Assembly: GCA_012729395.1 (NCBI GenBank)
Contig: JAAYDF010000030.1
Location: 1 to 39,942 of the forward strand
Origin: Phycisphaerae bacterium
Lineage (GTDB): Bacteria; Planctomycetota; Phycisphaerae; UBA1845; PWPN01
Direction of reading: 5' to 3'
DNA length: 39,942 bases
Shown: in pieces, positions 6,590 through 7,079 of the stretch
How positions within the stretch are numbered: the stretch's first letter is position 1
Layout: every line of letters starts with the position of its first letter
The notes under the pieces: model-generated
What the model saw: only the letters and a program-made list of their open reading frames with translations
What the model was told of the DNA's origin: nothing
The model's database searches: none
Program-made: the position numbers and the translations under genes

Positions 6590-7079
6590 GGGCGGAGTGG
6601 GCGAGGCGATCGCTCGGTCGCCCCTTCGGGGGCCATGGCCGGGAGGAAAGTCCGAACTGGGCAGGGCACGGTGGTCGCTAACGGCGACCCGGAGTGATCC
6701 GAGGGACAGTGCCACAGAAAACATACCGCCGGGCTGGTGTGGCTGAGTTGCGGCCAAAAAGGTGTCAGGAACCTTTTTTGAGGTCGTGGCTCCTGCGGTC
6801 GCGGCCTCACAAAAGGTTCCTGACACCTTTTTGGCCGCAACTCAGCCACACCAGCCCGGTAAGGGTGAAAAGGTGCGGTAAGAGCGCACCGCGTCACCGG
6901 TGACGGTGATGGCAGGGCAAACCCCACCGCCAGCAAGCCCAAATAGGCAGCGAGAGGCGGCCCGCCTCGTTTGAGCTGCGGGTAGGGTGCTTGAGCGGTC
7001 TGGCAACAGGCCGCCCAGATGAATGATCGCCGTCCGCCTCGGCGGATAACAGAATTCGGCTTATTCGCCCGCTCCGCCT
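6590..7079 (+). ncRNA. rnpB: RNase P RNA, bacterial class A, with enlarged P12
   Basis: This is the catalytic RNA that removes 5' leaders from pre-tRNAs. Conserved elements appear in order: GAGGAAAGTCC (6646-6656, CR-I), CACAGAAAACATACCGCC (6713-6730), GGTAAGGGTGAAA (6858-6870), GGTGCGGTAAGAGCGCACCG (P13/P14 side), GGCAGGGCAAACCCCACC (P15 loop), CAAATAGGC, GGGTAGG-x-TGCTTGAG, AGATGAATGATCGCC and ACAGAATTCGGCTTA. P1 forms 14 bp between 6591-6604 and 7065-7078. Without the insertion at 6731-6857 the RNA would be a normal length near 360 nt. The P15 loop reads GGC (6916-6918), where E. coli has the GGU that pairs with tRNA CCA. Confidence 0.95.
6731..6857 (+). repeat. Palindromic element with perfect 47-bp arms inside rnpB P12
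   Basis: Bases 6731-6777 are the exact reverse complement of 6811-6857 (47 of 47). The 33-nt centre continues as an imperfect helix with GAGG/CCTC pairing and several wobbles. Each arm contains GGTGTCAGGAACCTTTT. The position, between ACATACCGCC and GGTAAGGGTG, is exactly where the short P12 hairpin occurs in E. coli. The arm style is that of REP or MITE-like repeats dispersed in many environmental bacterial genomes. That affiliation is inferred. Confidence 0.85.

Follow-up and report, generated by a model that had tools for sequence, protein, structure and literature searches.

A dispersed palindromic repeat linked to a RAYT gene lies in helix P12 of the RNase P RNA of a Phycisphaerae bacterium

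The sole gene for RNase P RNA found in the genome of a Phycisphaerae bacterium (GenBank assembly GCA_012729395.1) carries in its helix P12 a palindromic element that is present in dozens of copies in the same genome and is linked to a RAYT transposase gene. The core of the RNA is intact, and dispersed repeats have entered P12 repeatedly within the order to which this organism belongs. The explanation that we favor, at a probability of roughly 75%, is that a REPIN of a RAYT-linked family was inserted at the tip of P12 in the only rnpB of the genome, was nearly neutral and was kept. The window referred to below is the whole stretch of DNA that was analyzed, 39,942 nucleotides, which is an entire contig (G000:C313) of the source genome; this genome, G000, comprises 5.74 Mb in 370 contigs, and all other G-numbers denote genomes of the same order.

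The RNase P RNA gene and its palindrome

A search with cmscan identified rnpB in the window as class A RNase P RNA, with a match to RF00010 (RNaseP_bact_a) that covers the full length of the model (1-367), reaches 303.8 bits and exceeds the gathering score (Table 1). It is the single RF00010 match in G000, and a profile search of G000 for a HARP-type protein-only RNase P (PF08745) found none. The score is no worse than that of relatives with a short P12, and the full-length match bears out the preliminary description of this DNA, which had called the rnpB core intact. Elsewhere in the window, the 3' part of a tRNA-Gln gene (anticodon CTG, 2462-2536, + strand) runs into the end of an ORF for a phage integrase (2501-3463, - strand), which is the usual look of an element integrated at a tRNA.

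The cmscan alignment places the insert in the P12 loop. The inverted repeat spans 6729-6786 and 6802-6859, and a position-by-position check of the arms (6729-6777 against 6811-6859) gave 49 Watson-Crick pairs out of 49; the arms, previously counted as 47 of 47, are indeed perfect and slightly longer. One mismatch (6778/6810) lies inside these arms and is followed by 13 pairs, four of them G.U, with zero mismatches. The insert does extend P12, as had been proposed, to a nearly uninterrupted helix of about 60 bp, and the palindrome folds at -132.6 kcal/mol vs -52.6 +/- 4.2 kcal/mol for shuffled sequences (z = -18.9). Each of its two REP units, which are inverted copies of AAAAAGGTGTCAGGAACCTTTTT with a single-base difference at the inner edge of one, is able to fold alone as AAAAAGGT, a GTCAGGA loop and ACCTTTTT.

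The earlier claim of a mobile insert of 127 nt holds for the inner part of this structure only. A 24-mer from inside the outer 27 bp, searched for in G000 with up to 3 mismatches allowed, was found only at the rnpB locus, and the two outer segments are complementary to each other with no mismatch, so that the mobile element is only the middle ~73-77 bp of the insert and the outer 27 bp of each arm, which are locus-unique, are best read as the P12 stem proper.

Table 1. Features of the rnpB gene and of the palindrome in its helix P12 (positions in the window)
Feature	Position	Strand	Basis
rnpB, class A RNase P RNA gene, sole copy in the genome	6594..7079	+	cmscan, RF00010
5' outer arm, putative P12 stem, 27 bp, locus-unique	6729..6755	+	pairs with 6833-6859; 24-mer search
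5' REP unit AAAAAGGTGTCAGGAACCTTTTT, small hairpin	6756..6778	+	13-mer core GGTGTCAGGAACC at 6761-6773
REPIN spacer, variable, hairpin of 13 pairs including 4 G.U	6779..6809	+	folding, pairing, comparison of copies
3' REP unit, inverted copy	6810..6832	+	17-mer on the minus strand at 6811-6827; inverse core at 6815-6827
3' outer arm, putative P12 stem proper	6833..6859	+	inverted repeat, pairing

Dispersed copies and their arrangement

We counted copies in G000 by pattern search. The core GGTGTCAGGAACC has 58 exact copies, vs 0 for the reversed control, and the 17-mer GGTGTCAGGAACCTTTT of the arms has 27 (reversed control 0); within the window the 17-mer, with 0.04 occurrences expected, is present in the two P12 arms only. 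The arm motif is therefore dispersed, and the earlier suggestion of a dispersed REP/MITE-like palindrome gains support from the copy number, from the doublet structure described here and from the linked RAYT gene described below. Most core copies come in pairs, as inverted doublets that enclose a palindromic spacer of variable sequence. Among the loci that were fetched from G000 we found 22 distinct inverted doublets with exact REP ends, whose spacers, mostly 41-58 nt long, are hairpin-forming and different in every copy, the only shared sequence being a TTTGTTTG-like edge in some. Judging from the sequences, this is the anatomy of REPINs, which are defined as inverted REP doublets with a changing spacer that keeps pairing (Bertels and Rainey 2011, PMC3116915). 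The GTAG tetranucleotide is absent from the flanks of the 22 doublets, which have an A-run instead, and the family thus falls outside the GTAG-tagged REP superfamily. The other genomes of the order contain at most 2 copies of the core each, except G016, where 29 copies of the motif are mostly single rather than in doublets.

A number of the single REP cores are situated no more than a few hundred bases from the end of a contig (C28, C78, C211, C219, C228 and C324 of G000), and for this reason the figure of 58 copies is probably too low. Such positions also indicate that the assembler struggles with this repeat, as would be expected if the insert in rnpB were an assembly artefact. We consider this extremely unlikely, since the insert is located 6.7 kb inside its contig, with unique rnpB sequence on both sides, unique outer arms and a spacer that is not identical to others. 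Two further REPINs of the family are located in one 808-aa ORF with glycosyltransferase domains (L015:1501-1584 and 1792-1889) and may also be translated, ORF calling being unreliable in this GC-rich DNA. No Rfam RNAs were found at 20 loci of other REP copies, and a scan of GTDB genome contigs for the REP core in P12 of another rnpB gave 29 matches to the core, 0 of them in an rnpB.

Link to a RAYT transposase

A REP-associated transposase gene had been named as something to look for, and one was found. G000 has 11 Y1_Tnp matches. One of them, on contig C122, is a RAYT gene that scores above the Pfam cut-off for Y1_Tnp (PF01797); the core lies 46 bp upstream of the start of this gene, and past its end, inside a neighbouring ORF, there is a copy of the core with one mismatch. 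The best NCBIfam model for this gene is REP_Tyr_transpos (REP-associated tyrosine transposase), at 63.4 of the 80 bits required and hence below the cut-off. Its closest relative among the RAYTs found, with 57% identity, is in G016 (G016:C160), where exact inverted cores flank the gene on both sides, ~39 bp upstream and ~10 bp downstream. Homologous RAYTs in G014, G036 and G024 are bracketed by copies of the motif with two mismatches, and in the Planctomycetaceae genome Ww147 the motif precedes a RAYT at a distance of ~40 bp. Because it flanks RAYTs in all six of these genomes, the motif behaves as the end sequence of the RAYT clade to which the C122 gene belongs, in the manner of TIRtrons.

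Flanking sequences and hairpin tips

The flanks of the doublets were compared after removal of the A/T run beside the REP, and right flanks were permuted among loci (20,000 permutations). At least 4 contiguous complementary flank bases are present in 8 of the 22 doublets, rnpB included. With rnpB excluded, flank complementarity of at least 4 bp remains in 7 of 21 REPINs, where 0.61 would be expected (0 of 20,000 permutations, p < 5e-5). About one-third of the REPIN copies are located at the tip of another hairpin, the copy in P12 being the most extreme, and we infer a preference of REPINs for hairpin tips. The complementarity could reflect either a preference of the RAYT for hairpin tips in single-stranded DNA or template switching that lengthened the palindrome outward. 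GGCC is present on both sides of the rnpB element and could be a target duplication or merely stem; no target-site signature was isolated.

The perfect arms in rnpB had been taken as a mark of recent arrival or of repeated correction. Other copies, with entirely different spacers, are near-perfect palindromes as well, so recent arrival is not required and a continual homogenisation of the arms fits. This same observation is what would be expected if a REP had entered one arm only and quasipalindrome correction by template switching had copied it to the other arm, thereafter keeping spacer and outer arms identical; the complementary outer flanks of REPINs and the outer 27 bp of rnpB, perfect although locus-unique, point in that direction too. 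We nevertheless judge such an origin unlikely, because the usual form of the element is a doublet with similar spacing, which favors movement as a doublet.

P12 in related genomes

The comparison covers P12 from 49 rnpB sequences, after exclusion of four extractions judged unreliable and four others that did not succeed. These P12s are between 19 and 248 nt long (median 45 nt), and 16 of them reach at least 80 nt. The premise that P12 is short in sister species was half right: short forms go down to 19 nt, while in the family of G000 itself six other genomes have a P12 of 83-133 nt. Sequence that is found again elsewhere in the same genome is contained in 7 of the 16 long P12s (Table 2). The patterns were picked after the P12s had been viewed, and the counts in Table 2 accordingly measure multiplicity and are not an unbiased rate.

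Table 2. Copies in each genome of the repeat found in its P12
Genome	Copies in genome	Of these in P12	Reversed control	Remark
G000	58	2	0	
G035	15	2	0	
G028	13	2	0	
G046	8	2	0	
G045	5	2	0	
G027	4	1	0	
G021	2	1	0	single other copy

The repeats in the long P12s belong to five unrelated families, namely the rnpB REPIN, a GTAG-tagged REP doublet in G035 and three octamer-periodic kinds (GTGGGAAC, GTNACAAN and TCGAAANN). The REP of G035 is unrelated to the rnpB REPIN, and some of its other copies in that genome are also inverted doublets. Within genus g30, P12 is 93 nt long with the REP doublet in G035 and 47 nt long in G044, a difference that fits an insertion after the origin of the genus. Because 7 of 16 long P12s hold genome-repeated sequence from five unrelated families, P12 is in all appearance a recurrent and tolerated landing site for repeats in this order, and the insert is not a singular case, other dispersed repeats being present in P12 of at least six relatives. 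Not every long P12 is a repeat, since a k-mer test in samples of 5-9% of the genome gave no repeat signal for the long P12s of G002, G003, G007, G052 and G056.

These five P12s, together with the wide range of P12 lengths across the order, are what would be expected if the insert were an ordinary extension of P12, a helix that varies greatly within this order and often forms a long palindrome, with arms that evolved in place and came to resemble a repeat. For the insert taken as a whole we regard this as very improbable, since the REP core is exact on both arms, since its 58 genomic copies contrast with a reversed control of 0 and since RAYT genes are linked to it. The genome-wide copies refute an ordinary extension for the inner 73-77 bp; it is still the explanation for the outer 27 bp.

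Three further observations concern the gene and its repeats in the order. The octamer-periodic repeats are dispersed in several genomes, sometimes as long inverted pairs (L263-L277). The single-contig genome G005 has two full-length rnpB (C1:1119264-1119652 and 2096372-2096760; L029 and L096) with different P12, both above 300 bits. Class A RNase P RNA was not found in G001, G009, G014, G037 and G055, for which the reason may be an insert of great length, divergence of the RNA or the strictness of the search filters; G037 and G055, which belong to one genus, are 96-97% complete and G009 is 99% complete.

Proposed origin and consequences

In the sequence of events that we propose, the RAYT would mobilise the REPIN as single-stranded DNA, and the REPIN would land at the P12 tip in the only rnpB, a palindromic element at the center of a palindrome, giving one nearly uninterrupted helix of ~60 bp. 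The insert would be tolerated because the tip of P12 is distant from the catalytic core, and, being nearly neutral, would be retained. RNase III is predicted to act on a duplex of about 60 bp, and G000 has an RNase III gene; for these two reasons the enzyme may cut the helix, leaving an RNase P RNA with a nick in P12 that functions as two pieces. We offer this as a possibility with the odds against it. The broader proposal, that P12 in this Phycisphaerae order is a recurrent target of hairpin-seeking mobile repeats, that the 60-bp duplex is cut by RNase III and that the sole RNase P RNA works as two pieces, is likewise tentative and, taken together, rather doubtful.

The insert could also have been recruited for a function, with a long P12 that stabilises or localises the RNase P RNA or binds a protein. 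In the spacer stem at rnpB, 4 of 5 imperfect pairs are G.U when read on the transcribed strand, vs 11 of 42 in other copies (p ~0.02, a post hoc comparison of few pairs), which is a hint of selection at the RNA level. Sequence and length of P12, however, turn over between genera, to as little as 19 nt, and we give recruitment very little credence.

Mobile palindromes in an essential ribozyme amount to a natural insertion experiment, which indicates the helix tips of RNase P RNA that tolerate large inserts. That unrelated repeats have entered a single helix recurrently, and that the other copies are biased toward hairpin tips, opens the target choice of RAYTs to testing. Should RNase III indeed cut the helix, the result would be a two-piece bacterial RNase P RNA.

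Comparison with known systems

Butler and Fuerst are said to have described P12 of planctomycete RNase P RNA as highly variable already in 2004. Intervening sequences of bacterial 23S rRNA are hairpins inserted into an essential RNA, at the variable tip of one of its helices, where they are tolerated and cut by RNase III. The hairpin in P12 shares this kind of position and is likewise tolerated; the 23S rRNA sequences are removed by RNase III, which leaves a fragmented RNA, whereas in rnpB such cleavage is only predicted. None of the universally conserved nucleotides lies in P12, and this helix is at times dispensable (PMC2858038).

Our literature search, which covered few subscription journals, found no report of a REP, REPIN or RAYT-linked palindrome in rnpB and none describing P12 as a site that repeats enter recurrently. 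REPINs were already known, as were repeats within rnpB, in the form of the STRR repeats of cyanobacterial RNase P RNA (Vioque 1997, NAR 25:3471, as cited in PMC2858038). As cited there, STRR are like our case dispersed genomic repeats in rnpB, but they are short tandem repeats, whereas the insert described here is a palindrome linked to a RAYT; several relatives have octamer repeats in P12 that come nearer to STRR than the rnpB REPIN does. By their description, Rickettsia palindromic elements are similar in that a palindrome is inserted within a functional gene, those cited being in protein genes (PMC3733652).

In TIRtrons, RAYT-like genes have flanking TIRs that are also dispersed as dimers (Di Nocera et al. 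2013, PMC3733652). The rnpB motif shares with them the bracketing of a transposase gene as inverted repeats, the dispersal as dimers and the lack of a GTAG tag; the same paper catalogues REPs in protein genes, and a search of its text for RNase P or rnpB gave no hits. With the REPIN/RAYT system (PMC3116915) our family shares the inverted doublet with conserved ends, the variable pairing spacer, the dispersed copies and the linked RAYT, but its REP sequence is different and not of the GTAG type, and the REPINs described there are extragenic, whereas the rnpB REPIN is located inside an essential ribozyme.
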